Shown here in pieces: positions 2,633 to 19,818 of a stretch of 20,603 nt of DNA. The notes below the pieces were generated by a model. That model ran no database searches, was not told where the DNA came from, and worked only from the letters and a program-made list of their open reading frames with translations. Every line of letters begins with the position of its first letter. The stretch's first letter is position 1. The stretch spans positions 1 through 20,603 of the IMG/VR virus record IMGVR_UViG_3300024262_000313; one strand, 5' to 3'. Both the position numbers and the translations under genes were made by a program. This DNA is from a virus.

Positions 2633-3823
2633 TTAGTGTTTTATCCATTTAGATTTACCTCTCATGACTTGAGAAATTTCTTCAAGTTTAATGTTAGATA
2701 ATCTTATTTTAGCATTTCTAAGTTTTGCAACTTTCTCTCTATTTAATCTATTGATAACATATTCTGGCTGATTAGATCTTGCAGCTAAGACAGCGTGGCT
2801 CATATAAGCATACATAGCTTCCTCTGCCATCTTAGGGACCTTAGTGTCTAGGTCATACGCTAAACCATCAGAAACATACTCTAAAATGATTAAACGATCA
2901 ACTAGGTCATTTGAGAATGAAAAGGTATTCTGTCTTTCGTTTATAGTAAACCACCCATTAACTTGAGCAGTTGACGGGTTTAATCCATAAAGACCTCCTC
3001 CGCTACCATTGTTGACACCATTAGCCCAATATAAGTTACCGTCTATTAGATTATTATTTACATTACTTAATCCATTAGTGTCCCATCTAAAATCTGTAAT
3101 AGAAGTACCTTCAATATTATTACCAAAATTATCTTGCGTTGGTATTCCGTTAGCATCTTGTATAGGATTCCTATAAGGATTACTAGTTAAAGTAGTAGGG
3201 TATATTATATGTTTAACACCTGAATTATCTACCCAACTCATTTTAACGTAATTAACGTAATCTTGAGGGATAGGTACACTTAAGTTAGGCGGTATGGTTA
3301 ATTCTTGTGATTTGATGCTTTTTAAAGTATCATAACTAAATTCTTGCATTGCTCTTTTAGCAAAGAAAATTAAGTCAGTTCTTTTAACACTAGGTATTAA
3401 TTTCCCAGCACCAACATAAGCAACTAAAAAGTTATTTATAATATCGTTAAGTTTTATATAAGCGTAACTTCCCCAGTTCTCTTGAACAGTATCTCCATAA
3501 GCGTTTTTATCCCCGTAGTTTCCACCAGTTTCCGTCTTTAATTGTACAACAACGCTAGTGTTTACATTAAGGTTGCCAGTTATTGTTATGGTATTTCCAG
3601 ATACAGTAAAGTCTAGGACATACTCAACATAATCAACATCCCCAGGAGCTGCTGTGTATATTTTAAAGTTATTTAAAGCGTAGTTTGTTTGCAGTGGGTC
3701 ATAGCTACCGAATACTATATTAGTATCAAAAGTAGTGGTAAATGATTGGCCAGTACCAGCTATAGATATAAAACTCTGAGATCCAGCGTAATATTGTGTA
3801 TTATTTTCTGTTATTAGTGACAT
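2633..3823 (-). CDS. Putative head-tail connector (ring/adaptor) protein with N-terminal beta domain
   Basis: This 396-aa protein appears to have two parts. Residues 1 to about 120 are beta-rich and Gly/Thr/Asn-rich (including VSGNTITITGNLNVNTSVVV), loosely like the N-terminal attachment domain of T7-type tail fibres. From about residue 123 (KLNDIINNFLVAYVGAGKLI) it turns helical, and then carries ELTIPPNLSVPIPQDYVNYV and KMSWVDNSGVKHIIYP. I recall this segment from structural proteins of Bacteroidota and marine phages. A long helix-rich C-terminus (MAEEAMYAYMSHAVLAARSN onward) ends in basic residues. It sits between another connector-like gene and the stabilization-type gene with gaps of 3 and 6 bases. 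A ring or adaptor role below the portal is inferred from context; the family assignment is from memory. Confidence 0.55.
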   Translation of the reverse strand: MSLITENNTQYYAGSQSFISIAGTGQSFTTTFDTNIVFGSYDPLQTNYALNNFKIYTAAPGDVDYVEYVLDFTVSGNTITITGNLNVNTSVVVQLKTETGGNYGDKNAYGDTVQENWGSYAYIKLNDIINNFLVAYVGAGKLIPSVKRTDLIFFAKRAMQEFSYDTLKSIKSQELTIPPNLSVPIPQDYVNYVKMSWVDNSGVKHIIYPTTLTSNPYRNPIQDANGIPTQDNFGNNIEGTSITDFRWDTNGLSNVNNNLIDGNLYWANGVNNGSGGGLYGLNPSTAQVNGWFTINERQNTFSFSNDLVDRLIILEYVSDGLAYDLDTKVPKMAEEAMYAYMSHAVLAARSNQPEYVINRLNREKVAKLRNAKIRLSNIKLEEISQVMRGKSKWIKH

Positions 3824-3826
3824 CTA

Positions 3827-4615
3827 TTAGCTTTTTTTATTTATTTCTGTTTGTTGAATTTCTGAAGCAGCTACTTGAATAACTTGAGGGTCTCTTATTA
3901 TAACACCAGAATAAAATAATATTCTAGTTATAACATTTACTTGCTCAGAAGCATTAAGCTCAAAATGTTGAGATGCAATACCATTGTTTGGAGTTGCTGA
4001 AGCTGGGCTAACATATATATATTGACCTAAAGTACCAACGTTATAACCCCACGCTACGTTTCTAGGTTTTCTAATAAAGCTAGTATTAATGCTAGTTGTT
4101 ATACTAGTAGGTCTTATAATTAACTTATTACTCTCGTATAGATATGTAGGAAAATCTTTAGTAGAAGCGGTTAGTGGAGATTTTTGAATATTATAAAAAT
4201 CATTACGTTGTAATCTTTCTATTTCAGTAACATCTCCTGTAACTGTTTGATACACTGGAGTACCTAATTTATAAAATACTACTTGCGTACCAGTAGGCTC
4301 TGTACCGTCATTAACAACTACATTACCATCAGTGTCAGCAATAGGAAGATTAAACTTTCCATTAGCATAGATACATGCTCCTTCTGTTTTAAATATTGAT
4401 ATATTTTCGTCGACACTCATCTGTCTATCAGAGTAGTCGTAATCTGATTGTGGCACTCGCAGTTGTTGATTCAAATCATCAAAGTACTGCTCAAATATAT
4501 CAAGCTGAACTTGCGTTGCTGTTCTATTAAACTCATTAGGCGTTATATATCCACGCTGTTCTTTATTTAATATCAACAGAACTGTCTTATATACTGTATC
4601 TACGTTTATTGCCAT
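3827..4615 (-). CDS. Putative head-tail connector or ring structural protein
   Basis: This 262-aa protein begins with a helical segment, VDTVYKTVLLILNKEQRGYI then TPNEFNRTATQVQLDIFEQY (about residues 5-44). I recognise this pattern from structural proteins of phages of Bacteroidota. The middle is beta-rich (FNLPIADTDGNVVVNDGTEP), and a FPTYLYESNKLIIRPTSI stretch leads to a conserved-looking IRKPRNVAWGY. The C-terminus is helical and polar (SEQVNVITRILFYSGVIIRD to EIQQTEINKK). Helix plus beta-barrel-like architecture, modest length and a place between capsid and tail genes fit a connector or ring protein. The start is the ATG at 4613-4615, preceded by an A-rich leader without Shine-Dalgarno. 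The exact ring position cannot be told from sequence. Confidence 0.55.
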   Translation of the reverse strand: MAINVDTVYKTVLLILNKEQRGYITPNEFNRTATQVQLDIFEQYFDDLNQQLRVPQSDYDYSDRQMSVDENISIFKTEGACIYANGKFNLPIADTDGNVVVNDGTEPTGTQVVFYKLGTPVYQTVTGDVTEIERLQRNDFYNIQKSPLTASTKDFPTYLYESNKLIIRPTSITTSINTSFIRKPRNVAWGYNVGTLGQYIYVSPASATPNNGIASQHFELNASEQVNVITRILFYSGVIIRDPQVIQVAASEIQQTEINKKS

Positions 4616-4637
4616 TTTTTATTATTTATTATAATAT

Positions 4638-5623: not shown

Positions 5624-7054
5624 TTATGCAGTAAAAAGTACGAAGTTATTCGCAGCTTGTACACATAAACATCTTTCAGATAAGAAGTGAACTTCCATTG
5701 CATCAAGATCAGAAGTATAAGCACCTCCAACAGAACCAGTTAACCAAGATTTCATTCTTCTATCATCTGATTGAGAAGCTCTATATCTTACGTGTAAGAA
5801 AGGTCTTCTGATGTTAGTTCCTAAAATTTGATCATAAACTGTAGATGTTCCAGCAGGAACTAATACACCATCAATACCAGAATCTGCAACAGCTCCACGA
5901 GTAGATGCATCGTTTAAGTATTTCCAGTCAGTTTTGTAGAAGTCATAAGATCCACGTCTAAATCCAGAGAAGCCTAAGTTTAAAGCCATGTCTTCTGAAT
6001 TTTCGAATACACCATAAGATGTACCACTAGCTCCATAAGAATTTACACCAGCCAACATGTTATCGATAGTTAAAGAAAGTTGTCTGTTTAAAAACATCAT
6101 ATTTTCTTCAATCGCACCTTGAGTATCTAAGTTCTTTAAGATATTGTCAAAATCAGTTAAATCACCAGCAGCTGGAGCAAAACCTGAATATACATTACCT
6201 CTAGCTTTTACAGCAGCGAATAAACCTTCAGTACCTTTGTTAGCAGAAGCAGTTAAAGCAGCAACACCAGATCCGGCAGCAGCTTTAGTACCTTCAATTA
6301 CAGACATTTCTAAGTAGTCTTCAAAACGTAATCTTGTTTCAGATTCAGCTTTTAAATACCACATAAATCCACCTGTACCGTCTTCAGTCGCAACTTCAAC
6401 CCATCCAATTTGAGCAGCATCAGAACCATTGATAGCATACTTAGATTTGATAATGATTGGAGAGTTACTAAATTGAGTGAAAGAAGGTGTGATAGACTTG
6501 ATATCAGCATCTCCAGTACCTTTCTGATATTCAGAACCATATACAAAGATTTTAAGACCAGTGTCAGCAACATTAAAAGTAGCATCTAAGTCAGCACCAG
6601 TATAAGTAGCAACTGTTAAAGTAGCTAAAACAGAACTAGTATCAACGCTGCTAGTAACTAAAGCAGTAACTTCAACACCTGTAGCAGGGTTTAATACAAC
6701 GATAGTTTGATCTTTCGAAATAACGTTTGCTACGAAGGTAGAACCAGCGGTAGCATCTAAAACGAAAGTTAAAGTAGTAGCAGAAGCAACAGTAACACCG
6801 TTGTAAGCTACATGTAATCTATTTTGCTCAGACCAAACTACTTGATCAGAAGACATTGGGATTTCAGCACCAACCATACGTAAAAATCCAGATAAAGTTC
6901 TGTTTCCATAACGCTCTACTTCTTGTTCGTAGATCTCAGGTAAATATTGTTGTGCAAAGTCATTATCTCCATCGGTAAAACTTAAATAGTTTGTTGATAG
7001 AGCTTGTTGTTTTTGAGACGGTATAATTGTACCGAATGTAGGATTTAAAGCCAT
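5624..7054 (-). CDS. Major capsid protein (HK97-fold, inferred)
   Basis: This 476-aa protein has no transmembrane segment and follows terminase, portal and a scaffold-like gene in transcription order, the usual capsid position. The N-terminal region includes FAQQYLPEIYEQEVERYGNR (about residues 33-52) and a following segment with GAEIPMSSDQVVWSEQNRLH, which I recognise from major capsid proteins of marine phages of this type. A beta-rich, Val/Thr/Ala-rich stretch (about residues 85-170) looks like an inserted surface domain. It is followed by a helical region, RLRFEDYLEMSVIEGTKAAA, which may be the HK97 spine helix. The C-terminus has YDFYKTDWKYLNDASTRGAV and RPFLHVRYRASQSDDRRMKS. Alanine-rich, even codon use, an A-rich strong-looking leader (TAAAAACAAAACAAA before ATG) and a hairpin terminator fit a highly expressed gene. 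The fold itself is inferred. Confidence 0.88.
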   Translation of the reverse strand: MALNPTFGTIIPSQKQQALSTNYLSFTDGDNDFAQQYLPEIYEQEVERYGNRTLSGFLRMVGAEIPMSSDQVVWSEQNRLHVAYNGVTVASATTLTFVLDATAGSTFVANVISKDQTIVVLNPATGVEVTALVTSSVDTSSVLATLTVATYTGADLDATFNVADTGLKIFVYGSEYQKGTGDADIKSITPSFTQFSNSPIIIKSKYAINGSDAAQIGWVEVATEDGTGGFMWYLKAESETRLRFEDYLEMSVIEGTKAAAGSGVAALTASANKGTEGLFAAVKARGNVYSGFAPAAGDLTDFDNILKNLDTQGAIEENMMFLNRQLSLTIDNMLAGVNSYGASGTSYGVFENSEDMALNLGFSGFRRGSYDFYKTDWKYLNDASTRGAVADSGIDGVLVPAGTSTVYDQILGTNIRRPFLHVRYRASQSDDRRMKSWLTGSVGGAYTSDLDAMEVHFLSERCLCVQAANNFVLFTA

Positions 7055-8269: not shown

Positions 8270-10675
8270 TTAGCTAGGACCAAATTGTTCTAATCCAAAT
8301 CCACCTAAATTATCGTTTCCAGCAGATTCAAAGTCTTTAGGTAATAAATCATTTTGTCTTTGATCTATTAATTCTGACTGCTGTGTTCCTTGCATTTTTA
8401 TTCTTTTGTCTTTTCTATCTTCTAACTCTTTCTCTTTCTGAGACTCTGAGTTAGCAGTTACTTGAGCTAATTGCATTTTGTAATTAAACTCTTCAGCCAT
8501 AAGCTCTTTCTTAATACTAGCCTCCATCTGCCTACGTTGTATATCAAATTGAGATTTTGCTTGCTCTATACTTACTTTTTCAGAAGTTAAAGCTTGTTGT
8601 TTTTGAACTTCAAACATAGCTGCTTTTTCAGCAGATTCAGCATTGGCTTGAGCTTGAGCTTGAATATTTCTTTGTTGAGCTTCTTGTTCTCTTTTTATTT
8701 TTTGAGTTTGCCTTAGTTTTAGAAACTGATTGGCTGTTTTAGTGTTTTTAATCTCGCGGATATCAATAGCATCCGATAAGGCTATAGCCCCTGTTTGTAA
8801 AGCCATTTGAACATTTTGTTCTAATAAAGCTTTGTCATGATCCTCTGGTTCCATTTCTAAGTATAAACCAAAATCATGAAGTTGTAGATTTATTAATTCT
8901 TCTAGTGTTTTTGTGTTAAAAGTACTAATAGAATTTTTTAAAGAATTCTCAGTTAAAGGGTTTTGAATTAAATCAGCAACCTTAAGACTTATATTCTCAC
9001 ACATCCTTAAAGTAACGTACAGTAAAGAATCTAATAAATGTCTAGTAGCTGTATTAGAAGCGTTTACTGCTAATTTTTGTAAACCAACTAAAGCATCTTT
9101 ATCAGGAGCGCTACCGTCTCTAGCTTCATTTAAACCGGTTACATCACGAATCATTTGTAAATAGTATTGATAAGTGCCGATTAAACTCTGTATCTTAGCT
9201 TGTCCAGATGATGAAGATAATTCTTGAATAGGTACTTTACCTGCATTCATTCCACCTTCTTGAGTTAATGACCTACCTACTATACTACCCGTTTGGAAAT
9301 ACATATTAAGTGCTTCAGCAGGATTATAAGCTGTTCCATTACCTAAATCAACCTCTGCTAAACCATCCATATCTAAGAATACTCCATCTGGAACTATTCT
9401 AGACATTACTTGTTGTAATTTAAGATGTGTTAACTGTATCATATCAGCAAATCCAGTTATTCTACTTACTATAGATTCTATACGTCCTTTATACATTTTA
9501 GGTGCTGAAATACAAAAATTCATTTCAACTTTAGTTGTATCAGCTGTTGGTCTAGTCATATTTTCCGCTAGTTTCCATTCTAACATAGTATTATTACCTA
9601 GCACTTTAGCTCCAGTGTAAAGAACTTCTATAGTTCTATATACTCTTTCAAAATTATCATTTAATGGCGGATTAAATCCATCTGTCTTTTCTAATGTTTT
9701 TTCTAAACCTTGTTCTGTTTTTTTAATCTTGAACACCTGGTTCATATAAGTTTTGTATTCAAAATACATAACTTGAACAGTATTTTCATCGTAATTTCCC
9801 CAACCAGTTATATACTGAGAGTTTCCTGGCATTTCTTGTATCTTCTGTAACTCTTCCTCAGATAAATTAGGGAATTGTTTTTTAAGCTCTGGTATAGTTA
9901 TCGACTTTACTTCACCAACATAGTATATGTCCTCAAAGTTTGGATCCTCCGTGTAAGAGTAAACTAAATAAGCTGGATCAACATAGTCAATTTTAATACC
10001 TTCTGTTCTATCAAATCTTGTTTTACAAGCGGCAATACCTAGAATAGTTAAATCGGCTGCTAACCTTCTTTTGGTTTGATCATATTTATTAGCGGCTAAA
10101 ACATTGTTAATTACTTCTTCTTCAGCAATTTCTACATTTTGCTTATAAGACATCTGCATGTGAAGATCAAGTTCTTCTCTACTCTCAGGTAAAGTATTTA
10201 AGTCACTAGTCATAGACAAGTCTGCACCAAGTTGGTTTTTGATATCTATTAGCAACTCTTTAGTATTCATGTCTCTTTGAATTGCCGCTGCGTAATCAGT
10301 TCTAGTTTTAACAGAGAAAGGATCTTGTGCATAAGCTGAAATATCATAAGACTTATTAGACATACCATTAGCTACTATATCAACAAATTTAGATATGACA
10401 GGTACAGGTGTCCAGTCTAAATTCAAATAAGATAAATCACCATTTATAGATAATTCATCTTTGTATTTCTGTACGCTTTGCTCACCTCTAGCGTATAATC
10501 TTAATTGGTGAAAATTTGAGTACGACTGAGCGTATCTGTTACCAGACCTACCTTCTTGAAACCATTCGCCTTCTATAGCTCTTGCGACTTGCGTACCGTA
10601 ATCTAAGCTTGCTTTTATTTCGTCGCTAACTACTTGGCTAGGAAATGAACTATTAGTATTAGTCTGTATTTTCAT
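8270..10675 (-). CDS. Portal protein
   Basis: This 801-aa protein lies immediately downstream of the large terminase gene (3-base gap), the standard portal position. The length suits large portals of short-tailed phages. The N-terminal part includes LRLYARGEQSVQKYKDEL (about residues 58-75) and LDWTPVPVISKFVDIVANGM, which look like the clip/wing-side start seen in marine phage portals. The centre has FADMIQLTHLKLQQVMSRIV and PDGVFLDMDGLAEVDL, then the region RDVTGLNEARDGSAPDKDAL (about residues 523-542), typical of portal proteins ahead of the stem/crown helices. From about residue 640 the protein is a long Gln/Glu/Lys/Ala-rich helix (VQKQQALTSEKVSIEQAKSQ), probably a C-terminal coiled-coil or barrel reaching into the capsid. 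It would form the dodecameric DNA channel at one capsid vertex. Assignment rests on motif pattern and context together. Confidence 0.87.
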   Translation of the reverse strand: MKIQTNTNSSFPSQVVSDEIKASLDYGTQVARAIEGEWFQEGRSGNRYAQSYSNFHQLRLYARGEQSVQKYKDELSINGDLSYLNLDWTPVPVISKFVDIVANGMSNKSYDISAYAQDPFSVKTRTDYAAAIQRDMNTKELLIDIKNQLGADLSMTSDLNTLPESREELDLHMQMSYKQNVEIAEEEVINNVLAANKYDQTKRRLAADLTILGIAACKTRFDRTEGIKIDYVDPAYLVYSYTEDPNFEDIYYVGEVKSITIPELKKQFPNLSEEELQKIQEMPGNSQYITGWGNYDENTVQVMYFEYKTYMNQVFKIKKTEQGLEKTLEKTDGFNPPLNDNFERVYRTIEVLYTGAKVLGNNTMLEWKLAENMTRPTADTTKVEMNFCISAPKMYKGRIESIVSRITGFADMIQLTHLKLQQVMSRIVPDGVFLDMDGLAEVDLGNGTAYNPAEALNMYFQTGSIVGRSLTQEGGMNAGKVPIQELSSSSGQAKIQSLIGTYQYYLQMIRDVTGLNEARDGSAPDKDALVGLQKLAVNASNTATRHLLDSLLYVTLRMCENISLKVADLIQNPLTENSLKNSISTFNTKTLEELINLQLHDFGLYLEMEPEDHDKALLEQNVQMALQTGAIALSDAIDIREIKNTKTANQFLKLRQTQKIKREQEAQQRNIQAQAQANAESAEKAAMFEVQKQQALTSEKVSIEQAKSQFDIQRRQMEASIKKELMAEEFNYKMQLAQVTANSESQKEKELEDRKDKRIKMQGTQQSELIDQRQNDLLPKDFESAGNDNLGGFGLEQFGPS

Positions 10676-10678
10676 TTA

Positions 10679-12901
10679 TTAAATCATTTTTGATGATGAA
10701 CCAGTGTTATCATATTTTTTTATTCCTAAGTCTATAGGTTGGTATTCTCTCTTAGACGTTGGGATGTATCTATTCTTGTTGCAGGCCATTAAAGCTAATC
10801 CAGAGCTTATAGAAGCATCATATTTGGTTCTGTTATTTATATCAAATTTTGCCCAGTCTTCTAGTGTTCTTTGAAAATACATATCTCCAAACCCATTATC
10901 AGTGGAGCCAACGTAGGTATTTATATACGTTTCAATAGCTGCTGCATGCGCTTGTTTAATATCTTCACTAGAGTTAGGTATTCCACCTATATCTTTTTCT
11001 GTTACTGATAATTTATTCCAAACTTTATCAGGTCTATTCATAGAGTAACCTCTATAGCCTCTTCTTTTAAAGTGATATAATAATCTAGGTTTATTATTTT
11101 CACATAATATAGGCATTCCGTAGAACACACAAGCCATTAAAACGTCTTCAAAAAATATTTCAGCAGTTTGTGGTCTAGCTATATATTCTAAAAAGAAATG
11201 ATTTGGTGGTACATCTTCCATACTAAATTTAGTTAAACCATGTAAAGCTCCATTAGAACCTCTGCCATCAACTGTACCAGATATATCATAACTATCACAA
11301 CCAAAAGCTCCACAGTGTTCGTTACCCGGATACTTATTACCGTTCTTTAGTATTACGCGGTTTTGTAAGCTTAGAGGTGGAACCCAAGAAATTCTAAAAT
11401 TACCATCTTTATTTGGTATAAATATAACTTTAGAGTCTCTTACTCCATTCTCCCATTGAAAACTACCAATAGTTACAGATGATAAATTATTAAGGTCTTC
11501 GTTGCTATCTATCTGTTCGTATATTTTAGCTAAATTAAATAAAGACTGTTTTGTTTCGTCTCTAAAAGCGTGTTTCTCTGTTCTTGGAAACTGACGATAA
11601 TATTCATTTAAACCATCTTGATCATTCTTTAATCCTTCTACCTCATTATCCCAATGCTCTATAACACCTACTGTTATTTTATTACCACTTGGGTCTACGC
11701 AATCTTTCTGTGGGTTGTCGAATACAGGTAATCCGTAAGAATCAATGAATCCCTCGTAGTTCCATTCCATAGGTATGAACAAACTATATAGTCCTGAGCT
11801 AGTCTGACCATTGCGGTTTCTACTTGTAACGTCTGAAGCATTATAAAGTTTTTTAAAGTTCGCACCACCCTTATCTAAAGCATTTGATGTTGAACCCATC
11901 ATACATTTTCCAACGATCCTACTACCAAGTCTTAGACATGTTTTTGTAACTCGCCAGTTGTTTAGTATATTATCTGGTTTTTCCCACTTTCCACTCTCAT
12001 CGTGTACTAGTAGTTTTAATTTTTCTCCATCATAGGAGTTGTCACCAGTATTCTTCCAGTCTATAGTAGTATCAAGACCTGCAAGTTCCTCATCTGTTTT
12101 TCCTTCGTTTAATTTCTTTCTAGTAAGCCTAGATGCTGGTATTCTATAAGCTAATTCGGTTTTTGGCCTATCCATACCATCTTGAATTGGCTTGAAAAAG
12201 AAAGGGTAGTTAATTGATATGGGTACGACTTTATCAGTGAACATCTTTTTTGCATCAGCACCTGATTTGGATAAAATACCGAACCTTGAATCTGTTGATA
12301 TTGTGGCCATATTAACTGTTTCCCCGGATGCCATGAATGAAAATCCAGAACGTCTATTTTTGAGGTATGACATTCCGTAGCATCTAATATCTGCTTTACA
12401 AGCTTCCCAGAAGATAAAGAATAATCTATTTGATTCCCTATAATCTGCTGACCCAATATCAATCTTGGACCACTGCAAGTACATGTAATGAGTGCCAGTG
12501 ATATAAGTTGGATTGCCATTATTAAAAAACCAAAAACCTTGTTCCCTTCTCTCAAATTCTTTGTCAATATACCCATACCATTCTTCTTTGAAATCAATAG
12601 AGTGCTTGTCCCATTCGAATACGTTTTTAATACTAGATAGTTTTTTAGGATATTCTAGCTTAGTCCACACTTGTTCTTTTTTATCATCAGAACATTTGTA
12701 AACTTCTTTAGATTCTAATGGTAGAGCAATTTTTAGATTTTGAATTTCTATAATTTCACCTATAGTACCGTCTTTGCTTATTATAACAATATCAAAATCA
12801 GCATTATAACCATACTCCCATTTTTTATACTTATTATTTCTATTAAGTATAATAGGTTTTATGTGGTCATTTATAGTTTTGACTAAAGTTTGCTTATACA
12901 T
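10679..12901 (-). CDS. Terminase large subunit (packaging ATPase-nuclease)
   Basis: This 740-aa protein would dock on the portal, pump DNA into the prohead and cut concatemers. Visible ATPase elements are a P-loop-position segment NRRSGFSFMASGE (about residues 182-194), a Walker B strand LLVHDES (297-303) with the Asp-Glu pair, and a coupling motif MMGSTSN (334-340). The C-terminal RNase H-like nuclease half has a candidate metal-binding Asp in FGCDSYD (Asp536), a Glu in ILCENNK (Glu601) and a late Asp in TKYDASISSGLALMA (Asp695). The canonical GK[ST] is absent from the P-loop-position segment; an Arg/Lys nearby may substitute, as in other divergent phage terminases. The start overlaps the preceding 93-aa gene by 8 bases, and the portal gene follows. 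The N-terminal ~100 residues are less conserved-looking. The start at 12901 is the first ATG in frame after the overlap. Confidence 0.88.
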   Translation of the reverse strand: MYKQTLVKTINDHIKPIILNRNNKYKKWEYGYNADFDIVIISKDGTIGEIIEIQNLKIALPLESKEVYKCSDDKKEQVWTKLEYPKKLSSIKNVFEWDKHSIDFKEEWYGYIDKEFERREQGFWFFNNGNPTYITGTHYMYLQWSKIDIGSADYRESNRLFFIFWEACKADIRCYGMSYLKNRRSGFSFMASGETVNMATISTDSRFGILSKSGADAKKMFTDKVVPISINYPFFFKPIQDGMDRPKTELAYRIPASRLTRKKLNEGKTDEELAGLDTTIDWKNTGDNSYDGEKLKLLVHDESGKWEKPDNILNNWRVTKTCLRLGSRIVGKCMMGSTSNALDKGGANFKKLYNASDVTSRNRNGQTSSGLYSLFIPMEWNYEGFIDSYGLPVFDNPQKDCVDPSGNKITVGVIEHWDNEVEGLKNDQDGLNEYYRQFPRTEKHAFRDETKQSLFNLAKIYEQIDSNEDLNNLSSVTIGSFQWENGVRDSKVIFIPNKDGNFRISWVPPLSLQNRVILKNGNKYPGNEHCGAFGCDSYDISGTVDGRGSNGALHGLTKFSMEDVPPNHFFLEYIARPQTAEIFFEDVLMACVFYGMPILCENNKPRLLYHFKRRGYRGYSMNRPDKVWNKLSVTEKDIGGIPNSSEDIKQAHAAAIETYINTYVGSTDNGFGDMYFQRTLEDWAKFDINNRTKYDASISSGLALMACNKNRYIPTSKREYQPIDLGIKKYDNTGSSSKMI

Positions 12902-13175
12902 TCTTAGATCTACCTTCAGCGAAACCTTTGAATTGTTTCTCTTGTTTAACGTCTCTTGGCTTCTCCTGTAATAATTTTTCCTCTTCCTCTATGCGATTAA
13001 GTATTTCAAAAGCGTCAAATATAGCTAGCTTTTTAGTAGCGGCAGCATTTTTAAGTCTATCAGCTGAGATGTCTTCTCCTGAGTCAACAATCTTTTCCTG
13101 CGCCACTTTTATTAATTCCTCAACTGCTTTTTGCCCAGCTCGGATTATATTTAACTTCGTCTCCTTGTTTGTCAT
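12894..13175 (-). CDS. Small terminase subunit candidate or terminase-associated protein
   Basis: This 93-aa, almost entirely helical protein is encoded directly upstream of the large terminase and overlaps it by 8 bases, while overlapping the 201-aa gene before it by 56 bases. The middle segment AATKKLAIFDAFEILNRIEE is recalled from small proteins beside terminase genes in marine phage contigs. Charged helices (LIKVAQEKIVDSGEDI and IEEEEKLLQEKPRD) could form an oligomeric coiled coil. Its size, helix content and position suit a small terminase subunit, but no clear helix-turn-helix DNA-binding motif is visible, so the role is inference. The 56-base overlap is long but no later Met exists in frame. 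Confidence 0.6.
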   Translation of the reverse strand: MTNKETKLNIIRAGQKAVEELIKVAQEKIVDSGEDISADRLKNAAATKKLAIFDAFEILNRIEEEEKLLQEKPRDVKQEKQFKGFAEGRSKNV

Positions 13176-13725
13176 ATTTGATTACAATATCATTTGATTT
13201 CATACAATACAATCTTTCGTTATCTATAAAAAATTCAAACTCACCGAACGGTGTGTAACCAACTAGATCACCAGGATTGATTTCTATAGCTTCTAATGAG
13301 CTATTACCATATTTTAGTATTCCTATAAGCTTTTTTTCTTTATCTGCTGTTAGATCATCACTATCAATTATAGGATTTACAAAGCATCTATCTCCAAAAG
13401 CTTTCCATTCACTATCTCGTTTATATAAATAAACTTGATCTATAGAACAGAAAAATTTATCATCAGTAAATTTAGATCTACTATCTTTTTGATTACCTCT
13501 CATATCGTAGAATCTTCTAAAAACATTGTGATGTATTATTACGGTATCACCTTTTTTAATTTTAGTTTCAAAAGCTCTAGGTACTTCTAGTACCACAGCT
13601 CTGTTACTAACTGATTTAAACGATTCGATACTACTATTAGTTATTAAAGTTTTATCACCTACTTTAATTTCATTATCGTATCTTTTATTGACAGGTTCAA
13701 CAATAAAGTCAAATAAACTCTGCAT
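13120..13725 (-). CDS. Tandem GroES-like protein, possible pseudo-dimeric co-chaperonin
   Basis: This 201-aa protein reads as two copies of a GroES-like pattern. Half one has LFDFIVEPV (residues 4-12), like GroES LHDRVIVKR. It then has AVVLEVPRA (43-51), IKKGDTVIIHHN (56-67), like GroES VKVGDIVIFND, and FFCSIDQVYLYK (91-102), like the GroES C-terminal strand. Half two repeats this with FGDRCFVNPI (110-119), LIGILKYGNSS (133-143), INPGDLVGYTP (149-159) and LYCMKSNDIVIKYD (172-185). I recall similar proteins in marine phage contigs. No clear GroES mobile loop is seen; residues 18-40 could fill that position. It starts on the stop of the 75-aa gene (TAATG) and runs 56 bases into the terminase-side 93-aa gene. 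An alternative is a virion protein that uses the same beta-barrel. The comparison was made by eye. Confidence 0.5.
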   Translation of the reverse strand: MQSLFDFIVEPVNKRYDNEIKVGDKTLITNSSIESFKSVSNRAVVLEVPRAFETKIKKGDTVIIHHNVFRRFYDMRGNQKDSRSKFTDDKFFCSIDQVYLYKRDSEWKAFGDRCFVNPIIDSDDLTADKEKKLIGILKYGNSSLEAIEINPGDLVGYTPFGEFEFFIDNERLYCMKSNDIVIKYDKQGDEVKYNPSWAKSS

Positions 13726-14255: not shown

Positions 14256-14654
14256 TTATTTATTATCACTTGATCGTTTTGATTTTTCCCATGTTCTACC
14301 CACAAAATAAGCACCGTACACTGTTATTAATAAAGATTGGAATATAGGTGTGTATTGTTCTGCTACCTTAAAACCTCCAATATTACCGTCGAAAAAAGCT
14401 AATATAGTAAAGACAACAGTTAAGTATATTAAAACTAAAGGTCTAATGTTTTTAGATAACCAACTATCGCTAACCATATCAGCTTTCCAGCGATCTGTAA
14501 CTTGAGCCTGTGCGTCACTATCAGCTTTCTCTAATATCTCTTGTATTAATCTCTGAGCCTCTAGCTTTTCTTCCTCGGTAGTCGTAAGCTTGTCAATAAC
14601 ATCACCAACACTTTTGATAACGCCACCTGTAAGCCATTGGAATATTTTATTCAA
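14256..14654 (-). CDS. Holin candidate, GTA-type 3-TM holin family
   Basis: This 132-aa membrane protein has a helical, soluble N-terminal part that includes TTEEEKLEAQRLIQEILEKA. It then carries the family-like segment WLSKNIRPLVLIYLTVVFTI (about residues 65-84) that spans a first membrane helix. A second is SLLITVYGAYFVGRTWEK (about 107-124). Arrangement and motif match the phage/gene-transfer-agent holin family with a conserved W-x-S-K-x-I-R-P start. It would open lesions in the inner membrane at lysis. No endolysin is visible in this window, so the lysis pair is incomplete here. Confidence is fairly high for the family, lower for the role. Confidence 0.75.
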   Translation of the reverse strand: MNKIFQWLTGGVIKSVGDVIDKLTTTEEEKLEAQRLIQEILEKADSDAQAQVTDRWKADMVSDSWLSKNIRPLVLIYLTVVFTILAFFDGNIGGFKVAEQYTPIFQSLLITVYGAYFVGRTWEKSKRSSDNK

Positions 14655-16239: not shown

Positions 16240-16683
16240 TTATCTGTTTTTATCTTTATTTACATTATTTATAGAAGTAATCAAAACTTTATCTGTATAG
16301 TTCTGACCTTTCATTATTTTATTTCTTCTAGTACTAGTTGGTATATCTTCCTCACCAAGAATAATCCTGTACATTCTAAGGATTAGTTGCTTGCACTGGA
16401 AAGATACTTTGTATATATTGTATTTTTGGGTTGTTCTATTTCTTTCTCTCCAAACTTCAATCCAACCTTCTTTCAATAACCTATTCCATCTTCTATTGTC
16501 CCAACTGTAAGAGTATGAGCCAGTCAAGAAGTCTTGCTTTGAAAACAAGTCCATACAGTCTAAATATATTAAAAGTTCCAAATCAGCATCGTTTAAATTA
16601 TTATTCTTACATGCCCATTTACGTACTATTCTATAATGTTTAAATAAATTAAGATCTTTTATGTCACCAGCGGTTAGTCTCAT
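16240..16683 (-). CDS. Winged-helix-like DNA-binding protein, coupled to GroES gene
   Basis: This 147-aa protein has a helix-rich core followed by a wing-like strand pattern. LNDADLELLIYLDCMDLFSK (about residues 31-50) is followed by the putative recognition region SYSWDNRRWNRLLKEGWIEV (about 58-77), and a wing RERNRTTQKYNIYKVS leads to another helix. This resembles MarR-type winged-helix proteins, in which the LLKEGWI segment precedes the wing. I recall similar proteins in marine phage contigs. The ATG overlaps the GroES stop (ATGA, 16680-16683), so translation is probably coupled to GroES. It may regulate phage transcription; a non-regulatory DNA-binding role, such as packaging, is possible. 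Confidence 0.6.
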   Translation of the reverse strand: MRLTAGDIKDLNLFKHYRIVRKWACKNNNLNDADLELLIYLDCMDLFSKQDFLTGSYSYSWDNRRWNRLLKEGWIEVWRERNRTTQKYNIYKVSFQCKQLILRMYRIILGEEDIPTSTRRNKIMKGQNYTDKVLITSINNVNKDKNR

Positions 16684-16940
16684 AAAACAACAACAACATC
16701 ACCCATTTTTATAATATGGAAAGATTCTTTGTTTATTTCAATTTTATGCCCGGCATGCCTATCAAAATATATAACATCATTTTCTTTAATACCAACAACA
16801 TCGTTACCTAAGGATATCACTTTCCCTTCTACGTATCTAATATCTTCTCTGTGAGATTCAGCTAAGAAAAGCCCACCTTTTGTAGAGGTGGTACCTTCTT
16901 TTAGCTTCTCTATAATTATGTTACTACCTATTGCTTTCAT
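16680..16940 (-). CDS. groES: Phage GroES-like co-chaperonin, short (roofless) form
   Basis: This 86-aa protein is a co-chaperonin that should cap the GroEL cavity encoded just upstream. It begins with the chaperonin-10 strand MKAIGSNIIIEKLKEG. The mobile loop is about residues 15-33, with hydrophobic anchor LFL (24-26) at the place of the bacterial IVL. The segment VEGKVISLGN (38-46) matches GroES RGEVLAVGN, and ENDVIYFDRHAGHKIEIN matches the later barrel strands. Bacterial GroES is usually about 97 residues. Here the roof hairpin between the GN and the KEND segment is nearly absent (only DVVGI), as in T4 Gp31, which lacks a roof. The gene overlaps the GroEL stop by 1 base (TAATG) and the winged-helix start by 4 bases. 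Gene order is groEL then groES. Confidence 0.88.
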   Translation of the reverse strand: MKAIGSNIIIEKLKEGTTSTKGGLFLAESHREDIRYVEGKVISLGNDVVGIKENDVIYFDRHAGHKIEINKESFHIIKMGDVVVVL

Positions 16941-18484
16941 TATGTAACTCTTAAATTATTAATTACACAATCGGTTGATAATATCGTTGTAGCTACTGAC
17001 ACCGCATTTTGCAAAGCGCATTTAGTAACTAGTAATGGATCTATAATACCAGATTTAACCATATTAACAGTTTTACCTGTGATAACATTAAGGCCTTTCC
17101 CTTTACTGTTAGGTATTTTTATGTCTGTTATACCAGCATTTTCTAATATTGTCTTAAAAGGTGCTCTAATCGCATCCAGTAACACTTGTTCTCCTATGTT
17201 CATAGCTTTAAGATACATTGAAGCATTTAATAAAGCAATTCCACCACCAGGTACAATACCTTCTTTGATAGCTGCTTTAGTTGCGCAAATAGCATCTTCC
17301 ACTCTGTCGTTCTTTTCTTGTAACTCAATTTCAGAATTAGCACCAACTTTAACAATAGCTATTTTAGCTGATAACCTAGCTAATCTTTTTTCTAGCTTAA
17401 TAACTTTGAATGATTGCTTCTCAATTAATAACTGTTCTTTTAAATCAGCTATAATGCTTAAAACTTCCTTCGTTGGTTCACCTACTTTTAATATAGTTTC
17501 TTCGTGAGTTGTTATGCTTCTTAAACAAAAACCTAGATGCTCAACTTGGATTAAATCCATATCGTCACCAAGATCTTCATTTATAATGGTAGCACCTGTT
17601 AATAAAGCAAGATCGTCTAATATTTCTTTCTTACTAATACCAAATGTAGGTGCATCAATAACATTAACTTTAATGTTACCTTTATTTTTGTTCATTGCTA
17701 GAGCTGATAAAACACCTTGATCTAAATCACCTATAATAAGTAGAGGCTTGTGGTTTTTTATTACATACTCTAATACTGACTGAATTTGTCTAATTGTTTC
17801 AACTGGTGACTCAATTAATAAAACCAATGGTTTTTCTAACTCAGCTGATTTATCCTGTTGATTAGTAATGAAATGAGAGTTTTTTAATCCCTTGTCATAT
17901 TGAATACCATCTACAACTTCTATCTCTGTAATCCCAGACGAAGATGTCTCCATCATAACTATTCCTGTGTTGTCAACCGCTCTAAATGCATCGGCTATTA
18001 ACTTACCTAGTTCTGGATCGTTGTTTGTAGAGATAGTAGCTATTTGGTCTATCATATCACCTTTAACGTTGATAGAATTTTGTTTTAAATATTTAACTAC
18101 TTTTTCTGTAGCTGAATTAATACCATCTTTTAATTCTCTTGAGTTTGTTTTGTTTGACACTTTATAAGCTTCTTTCAGTATAGCGTGAGCTAATACAGTA
18201 GCTGTGGTTGTTCCGTCTCCTGCTTCTCTAACAGTTTTCCTAGCTGCTTCTTTTAAAAGTGTAGCCCCCATATTTTCTACAGGATCTAGTAACACTATTG
18301 AATCAGCTACGGTTACGCCATCTTTAGTGATAACTGGTCTACCTGACCCATCTTCTAACATTACACATTTGCCACTAGCACCTAAAGTGGAGCTAACAGC
18401 TAGTGTAAGTTTTTCTATTCCTTTAAATACATTAGCTCTGGCCTGTTCACCGAAGTTAAGGTTTTTTACTATCTTATCTGACAT
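16940..18484 (-). CDS. groEL: Phage GroEL-type 60-kDa chaperonin
   Basis: This 514-aa protein belongs to the group I chaperonins, which form a folding cavity driven by ATP. Nucleotide and catalytic residues align to E. coli GroEL: KDGVTVA with Asp55 (E. coli Asp52), GDGTTTATV with Asp90 (Asp87), and RVEDAI with Asp397 (Asp398), plus PGGG at 412-415. The apical helices IRQIQSVLEYV (231-241) and GVLSALAMN (257-265) keep most hydrophobic contact positions. Differences include TLGASGK at 33-39 where E. coli has TLGPKGR, YDKGLKNSHF (196-205) where E. coli has FDRGYLSPYF, and an end at NNLRVT without the Gly-Gly-Met tail (514 versus about 548 residues). The start is the ATG at 18482-18484. It should fold phage proteins such as the capsid protein with the adjacent GroES. 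Confidence 0.95.
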   Translation of the reverse strand: MSDKIVKNLNFGEQARANVFKGIEKLTLAVSSTLGASGKCVMLEDGSGRPVITKDGVTVADSIVLLDPVENMGATLLKEAARKTVREAGDGTTTATVLAHAILKEAYKVSNKTNSRELKDGINSATEKVVKYLKQNSINVKGDMIDQIATISTNNDPELGKLIADAFRAVDNTGIVMMETSSSGITEIEVVDGIQYDKGLKNSHFITNQQDKSAELEKPLVLLIESPVETIRQIQSVLEYVIKNHKPLLIIGDLDQGVLSALAMNKNKGNIKVNVIDAPTFGISKKEILDDLALLTGATIINEDLGDDMDLIQVEHLGFCLRSITTHEETILKVGEPTKEVLSIIADLKEQLLIEKQSFKVIKLEKRLARLSAKIAIVKVGANSEIELQEKNDRVEDAICATKAAIKEGIVPGGGIALLNASMYLKAMNIGEQVLLDAIRAPFKTILENAGITDIKIPNSKGKGLNVITGKTVNMVKSGIIDPLLVTKCALQNAVSVATTILSTDCVINNLRVT

Positions 18485-19261: not shown

Positions 19262-19281
19262 TTTATTTATTTATTTATTTA
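19262..19281 (-). repeat. (TTTA)5 tetranucleotide tract before the 119-aa gene
   Basis: Five perfect TTTA units (AAAT class on the minus strand) fill the 27-base gap between the methyltransferase stop and the 119-aa start, and the methyltransferase stop codon is the last unit. In an A/T-rich genome this may be chance, or an expandable spacer that changes the distance between stop and next start. Confidence 0.6.
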
Positions 19282-19818
19282 TTTTATTAACCATTTGTGA
19301 AGCACGGGTACATATAATGCCCCTCCTTCGTTTAAATTTGTATTATAGAATTTAGAAACAAGTAGTTGATATTGCTCTTCTGTCATTTCTTCTTTTTCCC
19401 AGATTGTATCTATAATAATTAAATCATATTTTTCTGTTGTAGTATATGTAAATATATCACCTTTTATAATATTTATAATAGGGTTTAAATGTCCTGAAGA
19501 AATGTTGTAGTCAATAACTTCTTGACTAATTTCTACAACATCAATTTTACTACATTTATTAACCTCAGATAATTCGTGAGGTATTAACCCAAAACCTAAA
19601 CCCGTAACTAATACTGAATCATAGGTAAAATCTTTAAAAGAATCTTTAAAAAACCCGGTACAAGAATCACATTTACCTAAAAACACAGAAGCATACGTGT
19701 CTCTGTTATCTATCCATTGTCCATTAGAAAACTTTATAAATGTAATACCTTCTGAGTCTTTATAAACATTAAATTCGGTACCTGAATAATCTTTTAAGTC
19801 TGTATCTATTATTTTCAT
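19279..19818 (-). CDS. Class I SAM-dependent methyltransferase-like protein (spermidine synthase-like fold)
   Basis: This 179-aa protein carries the Rossmann methyltransferase signatures VLVTGLGFGLIP (about residues 69-80, motif I), IDVVEISQEVID (about 92-103, acidic residue for the cofactor), GDIFTYTT (about 119-126) and YDLIIIDTIWEKEEM (about 130-144). The pattern and length resemble the spermidine synthase-type core of small marine phage proteins. The N-terminal part has a KCDSC pair (about residues 49-53), which could be a metal-binding or disulfide site. The substrate is not deducible; polyamine synthesis is not supported beyond fold similarity. It is flanked by tail-linked small genes, so a virion or host-modification role is possible. 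The start ATG at 19816-19818 follows an A/T leader. Confidence 0.7.
   Translation of the reverse strand: MKIIDTDLKDYSGTEFNVYKDSEGITFIKFSNGQWIDNRDTYASVFLGKCDSCTGFFKDSFKDFTYDSVLVTGLGFGLIPHELSEVNKCSKIDVVEISQEVIDYNISSGHLNPIINIIKGDIFTYTTTEKYDLIIIDTIWEKEEMTEEQYQLLVSKFYNTNLNEGGALYVPVLHKWLIK

Follow-up and report, generated by a model that had tools for sequence, protein, structure and literature searches.

The window, by which we mean the whole stretch of DNA that was analysed, comprises a 20,603-base contig from IMG/VR. Profile searches identified a terminase, a portal protein, structural proteins, a holin and the end of a tail-fibre gene, as expected for a fragment of a tailed phage. On one strand, the window carries, in order, groEL, groES, a gene for a 147 aa protein, genes for small proteins, the holin gene, further small genes, and genes for a 201 aa GroES-like protein, a 93 aa protein, the terminase large subunit (TerL), the portal, a 390 aa protein, the probable capsid protein and more structural proteins. 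The chaperonin genes therefore lie in a phage with head genes, as a preliminary description of this DNA had proposed. The features discussed here are the following:

5624-7054, minus strand: virion structural protein, probable major capsid protein (phrog_13704; capsid role by position)
8270-10675, minus strand: portal protein (phrog_6547)
10679-12901, minus strand: terminase large subunit (phrog_6681)
13120-13725, minus strand: second co-chaperonin (GroES2), 201 aa, with tandem Cpn10-like domains and a long docking-type loop in domain 1 only
14256-14654, minus strand: holin (phrog_3427, PF11351)
16240-16683, minus strand: 147 aa protein (phrog_17028); 4-nt overlap with the groES stop
16680-16940, minus strand: groES, 86 aa Cpn10 co-chaperonin with the mobile-loop motif TKGGLFL and a shortened roof segment
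16938-16942, minus strand: TAATG stop/start overlap of groEL and groES (TAA 16942-16940, ATG 16940-16938; one-base overlap)
16940-18484, minus strand: groEL, phage group I chaperonin of 514 aa with an intact ATP pocket; the GGM tail is absent

The gene for the 147 aa protein is stop/start coupled to groES and is the next gene in nearly all relatives. The annotated phages nearest to the window by TerL identity were ctfjg026 (a Manatee Spring isolate, 62%), Elemovirus (46%), Maribacter phage Panino (40%) and the Cellulophaga phages phi19:3 (~38%) and phi38:1 (~36%), and the host is therefore probably a flavobacterium-like organism. Taken as a whole, we consider the window to be part of a podovirus-like phage, kin to flavobacterial phages (Elemovirus, Panino and ctfjg026), which encodes its own GroEL and GroES along with a double-domain lid, and we assign this reading a probability of roughly 0.8. 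A search for RNA families and tRNAs in the window found none. A methyltransferase / spermidine-synthase-like gene near the tail genes (19279-19818, minus strand) was present in at most one other fetched locus, and is an apparent recent insertion.

The phage GroEL and GroES

The phage-encoded GroEL and GroES pair reported earlier was intact at both genes, and profile searches confirmed the identity of each. GroEL matched Pfam PF00118 over residues 28-509 (207 bits), indicating full-length Cpn60 homology above the cut-off, and also matched phrog_5725 (448 bits) and E. coli GroEL (337 bits). GroES matched PF00166 (46 bits) and phrog_3188 (48 bits), and only Cpn10/GroES chains matched its AlphaFold model at E < 0.001. 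Comparison with a relative (L006) gave dN 0.034 and dS 0.61 for GroEL, and dN 0.036 and dS 0.50 for GroES, indicating strong purifying selection on both proteins.

Residues of the ATP/Mg pocket of GroEL (T30, K51, D52, G53, D87, T89-91, S151, D398, G414-416, I493 and D495) were kept in 20 of 20 clade members. At the apical positions that bind clients and GroES, F204, L237, L259 and N265 were retained, and others carried conserved changes (Y199 to L/I/M, Y203 to H, L234 to Q, V263 to A and V264 to M). The inter-ring positions A109, E434, E461 and V464 were changed or deleted. We take the roles of these pocket, apical and inter-ring positions to be those established for E. coli GroEL. By homology, the retention of the pocket along with the changes at the apical and inter-ring positions suggests that the ATPase works, that its partners are altered and that contact between the rings is weaker or different.

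The mobile loop of GroES, TKGGLFL, keeps the GGLxL motif, with T20, G22, G23, L24 and L26 invariant in 29 relatives, and was modelled with pLDDT < 50. Where E. coli GroES has 21 residues between the flanks of its roof hairpin, and roughly half of our bacterial set has 16, the GroES of the window has 12; this stretch is coil in the AlphaFold model. An about equally short roof was present in 8 of the 72 bacterial GroES proteins of the set, and a short roof alone is therefore no proof of a gp31-like role.

Gene order and junction

The preliminary description stated that groEL precedes groES through a TAATG overlap, in the reverse of the bacterial order, and both statements held when the junction was read and related loci were compared. 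The one-base form of the junction is peculiar to the window and its closest kin. In most relatives the overlap amounts to 17-23 bases; the difference arises because GroEL in the window is missing the final few residues (DESxR) present in its kin. All 187 related viral contigs in which both genes were seen carried groEL followed by groES on one strand. This order was found in 93 of 93 distinct contigs of the window's clade (clade A), with overlaps of 1, 4, 17, 20 or 23 bases, and in 79 of 79 ctfjg026-like contigs with both genes, where GroES lay downstream on the same strand at positions ranging from overlapping to 2.1 kb apart. It was also seen in 14 of 14 Elemovirus-like contigs and in the one Panino contig. 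Translation of the two genes would be coupled, with groEL read first and groES second.

The order groES-groEL was found in 77 of 78 bacterial loci with adjacent genes, a figure that is indicative since the set consisted of the best 80 loci by likeness to the window. The sole sampled bacterial locus with groEL before groES was from a planctomycete (L192, a Planctomycetes MAG; GroEL at 2992-4620), with a gap of 158 nt. Host-like order was seen in the phages immuto and SJC03, and phi38:1 carries groES, one ORF and then groEL. An assembly chimera, which the preliminary description had named as a possible refutation, is excluded in practice because the clade shows the same order and neighbours in 93 distinct contigs. 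In the crAss-like cr108_1 and cr111_1, small ORFs that overlap GroEL at its 3' end were considered as candidates for GroES; this was not supported, their sequences being unlike Cpn10. One record of 129,537 bases (L073) holds, next to an intact GroEL, a second one split between two reading frames (C1:125719-127171), and may be a concatenation or contain a decayed GroEL duplicate.

Phylogeny of the pair

The GroEL of the window was 73-100% identical to that of 80 loci of IMG/VR contigs, and a terminase search supplied another set of relatives. The highest identity to a bacterial GroEL was 43%. We built a careful GroEL tree of 49 sequences, omitting long-branched ones such as cr111, cr108 and Vibrio YC. 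All phages with the order groEL-groES were split from all bacteria and the host-order phages at 98/95, and the window's clade was recovered at 100/100 on a stem of 1.13 changes per site. Gene order requires one change on this tree, and the order counts together with the tree tie the groEL-groES order to a phage GroEL clade. A single origin of this order, uniting the four lineages that carry it, is only probable, because the deep part of the tree has long branches (Panino and phi38:1) and the program warned that long branches meet. The GroES tree (95 columns) was weakly resolved, and separated bacterial GroES with immuto and SJC03 from the reversed-order phages with phi38:1 at 99/99.

These trees allowed us to weigh whether a host groESL operon had been captured recently and then rearranged. 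The GroELs of SJC03 and LR756501 were placed among Bacteroidota and those of Va1 and 2.275.O among Gammaproteobacteria, and the nesting of SJC03, LR756501 and some Vibrio phages near host groups indicates that some other phages did capture host GroEL. The window's clade, however, lies outside the bacteria on its own stem, with low identity to the best bacterial match, and the reversed order is common to all four related lineages. AU tests rejected placement of the clade with the two Flavobacteriaceae (p 8.6e-5) and with all Bacteroidota (p 8.0e-5), which rules out host capture for the sampled bacteria. We consider recent capture of the operon to be highly improbable for the window. The split in the GroEL tree and the AU rejections thus support the earlier proposal that the pair is a separately evolved phage cassette; it belongs to an old phage clade that stands apart from host GroEL.

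A second, double-domain co-chaperonin

The 201 aa protein encoded next to the packaging genes had been overlooked in the preliminary description, whose account of a phage pair, in reversed order and within a phage clade, otherwise stands. This protein matched phrog_13932 ('co-chaperonin GroES') over its whole length, and its second half aligned with the GroES of the window in a profile comparison (E 1.6e-4, probability 50%). Sequence comparison with the PDB gave no usable match, and a fold search was therefore needed. The AlphaFold model (pLDDT 87) contained two Cpn10 domains in one chain. Confident Foldseek matches in the PDB were all Cpn20, GroES, Cpn10 or gp31, the best being 7ekq_R (E 8e-6), a Cpn20 chain of the Chlamydomonas Clp complex, and in a viral structure library the protein matched 'Chaperonin cpn10' of phi18:3 over the full length. 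Domain 1 has a less certain loop of 28 residues (~12-41) at the place of the GroES mobile loop. The loop of domain 2 is only 9 residues long (121-129), so that a mobile loop was found in one of the two domains.

The location of this protein in the packaging module, and a second domain without a long docking loop, would also fit a structural virion protein that has a GroES-like barrel and does not act as a lid. We regard this as unlikely, given that the strong PDB fold matches were all to Cpn10, Cpn20, GroES or gp31, and that a GroES profile also detects the homologues in phi19:3 and phi38:1 by sequence. A co-chaperonin lid is the reading we prefer. Isolates annotate the gene as "GroES/cpn10", and we found no published description of its double domain among open-licence papers.

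The gene for the double-domain lid lies beside the terminase in all six related lineages examined, namely the window's clade, ctfjg026, Panino, Elemovirus, phi38:1 and phi19:3. In the window's clade, it lies beside the terminase in 87 of the 93 loci with the pair, and the DNA fetched for the remaining six gave no match to it. Since the lid lies beside TerL even where GroEL is missing, its link to the packaging module is tighter than that of the GroEL/GroES pair. Phage phi19:3 (L165 / L171) carries a small GroES and the double-domain lid, and a search of its whole genome gave no match to GroEL; its lids presumably use the GroEL of the host. Loss of GroEL was also considered for ten loci of the terminase scan that have the double-domain lid. 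Of the seven that were examined, two, on records > 42 kb, carry GroEL further off, and the five with GroEL not seen on the whole record are fragments of ~20 kb or less, so that we make no claim of loss.

Possible roles in folding and head assembly

An ATP-driven GroEL ring with its own small GroES lid would make up a complete phage-specific group I chaperonin, and the pair could act as an ATP-driven cage for phage proteins. The altered apical residues and missing inter-ring contacts may reflect tuning to the phage's own lids and clients, and stable double rings may not be needed. Folding of the capsid by the pair is plausible. In Elemovirus, groEL-groES lie on the strand opposite to the head genes, which weakens the link to head assembly for the pair itself. 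With less certainty, the double-domain lid may act in head assembly, since its gene stays with the terminase/portal module also in phages where GroEL is absent or lies elsewhere, and it is a better candidate for a head-assembly partner than the pair.

The pair could instead help early or replication proteins and not the capsid, with the double-domain lid acting as the head-assembly factor together with phage or host GroEL. The groES and groEL genes of phi38:1 lie among DNA polymerase and resolvase genes, the Elemovirus pair is opposite to the head module, and the lid is found by TerL in all six lineages, including phi19:3 without GroEL. In the window's clade, however, the pair shares its strand with the lid and head genes and lies a few kb upstream of them, and we hold this division of labour to be possible, though not the favoured explanation. 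Somewhat more tentatively, the ring and its two lids may form a three-part chaperonin, in which the lids swap according to client or are mixed in one cap in the manner of chloroplast Cpn10/Cpn20. Given that each double-domain chain has a single docking loop, such lids may build a taller dome of two tiers to house large head proteins.

Comparison with known systems

The reversed arrangement is not new. It is present in GenBank for Elemovirus, Panino and ctfjg026, and Marine et al. 2017 (ISME J, PMC5649160), as quoted in PMC9611531, linked the order of large and small subunit genes in virioplankton to GroEL phylogeny. Their virioplankton proteins are likewise divergent phage group I chaperonins in which order follows phylogeny. 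They associated GroEL with genomes > 70 kb, whereas the isolates related to the window (Elemovirus and ctfjg026) are ~60 kb. Elemovirus (Flavobacterium phages, e.g. MT497071) has the same order, a one-base overlap and the double-domain lid by the terminase, and GenBank annotates both its groEL-groES pair and its 'chaperonin cpn10'; it differs in a GroEL only 37% identical to that of the window, as well as in the strand of the pair. Panino and ctfjg026 (MW202828) share the order and the lid beside TerL, but their GroELs are 35-38% identical to that of the window, and the Panino genes are 121 nt apart. The GroEL and GroES of Panino have been reported (PMC11590407).

With the window, the known virus-specific chaperonins gain a well-sampled clade, and gene order is seen to mark one set of phage lineages. 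Of the whole finding, the second lid most deserves to be followed further. A tandem-domain lid by the terminase in cultivable phages (Elemovirus, Callevirus and Baltivirus) provides material in which one could test by what means phages widen the folding cage, and how a lid of two domains can fit a ring of sevenfold symmetry, a question so far addressed mainly in chloroplasts and the apicoplast.

Chloroplast Cpn20 likewise has two Cpn10 domains per chain and coexists with single-domain Cpn10, and the two form mixed seven-domain caps (Tsai et al. 2012, as summarised in PMC3542282). Apicomplexan cpn20 has a mobile loop and roof in both domains (PMC3542282), unlike the window's lid with a long loop in domain 1 only. 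T4 gp31 is a phage lid of the Cpn10 fold that is without roof loops, a lack believed to make the cage larger or more open for the T4 capsid protein (PMC6318259). Both lids of the window match it in fold, but it differs in sequence and size and works with host GroEL, whereas the phage of the window has its own. The chaperonins of phages EL, OBP and AR9 are also phage-encoded; those of EL and OBP are reported to work without a lid (PMC5934643), and the GroELs of OBP and other jumbo phages are ~22-26% identical to the GroEL of the window.
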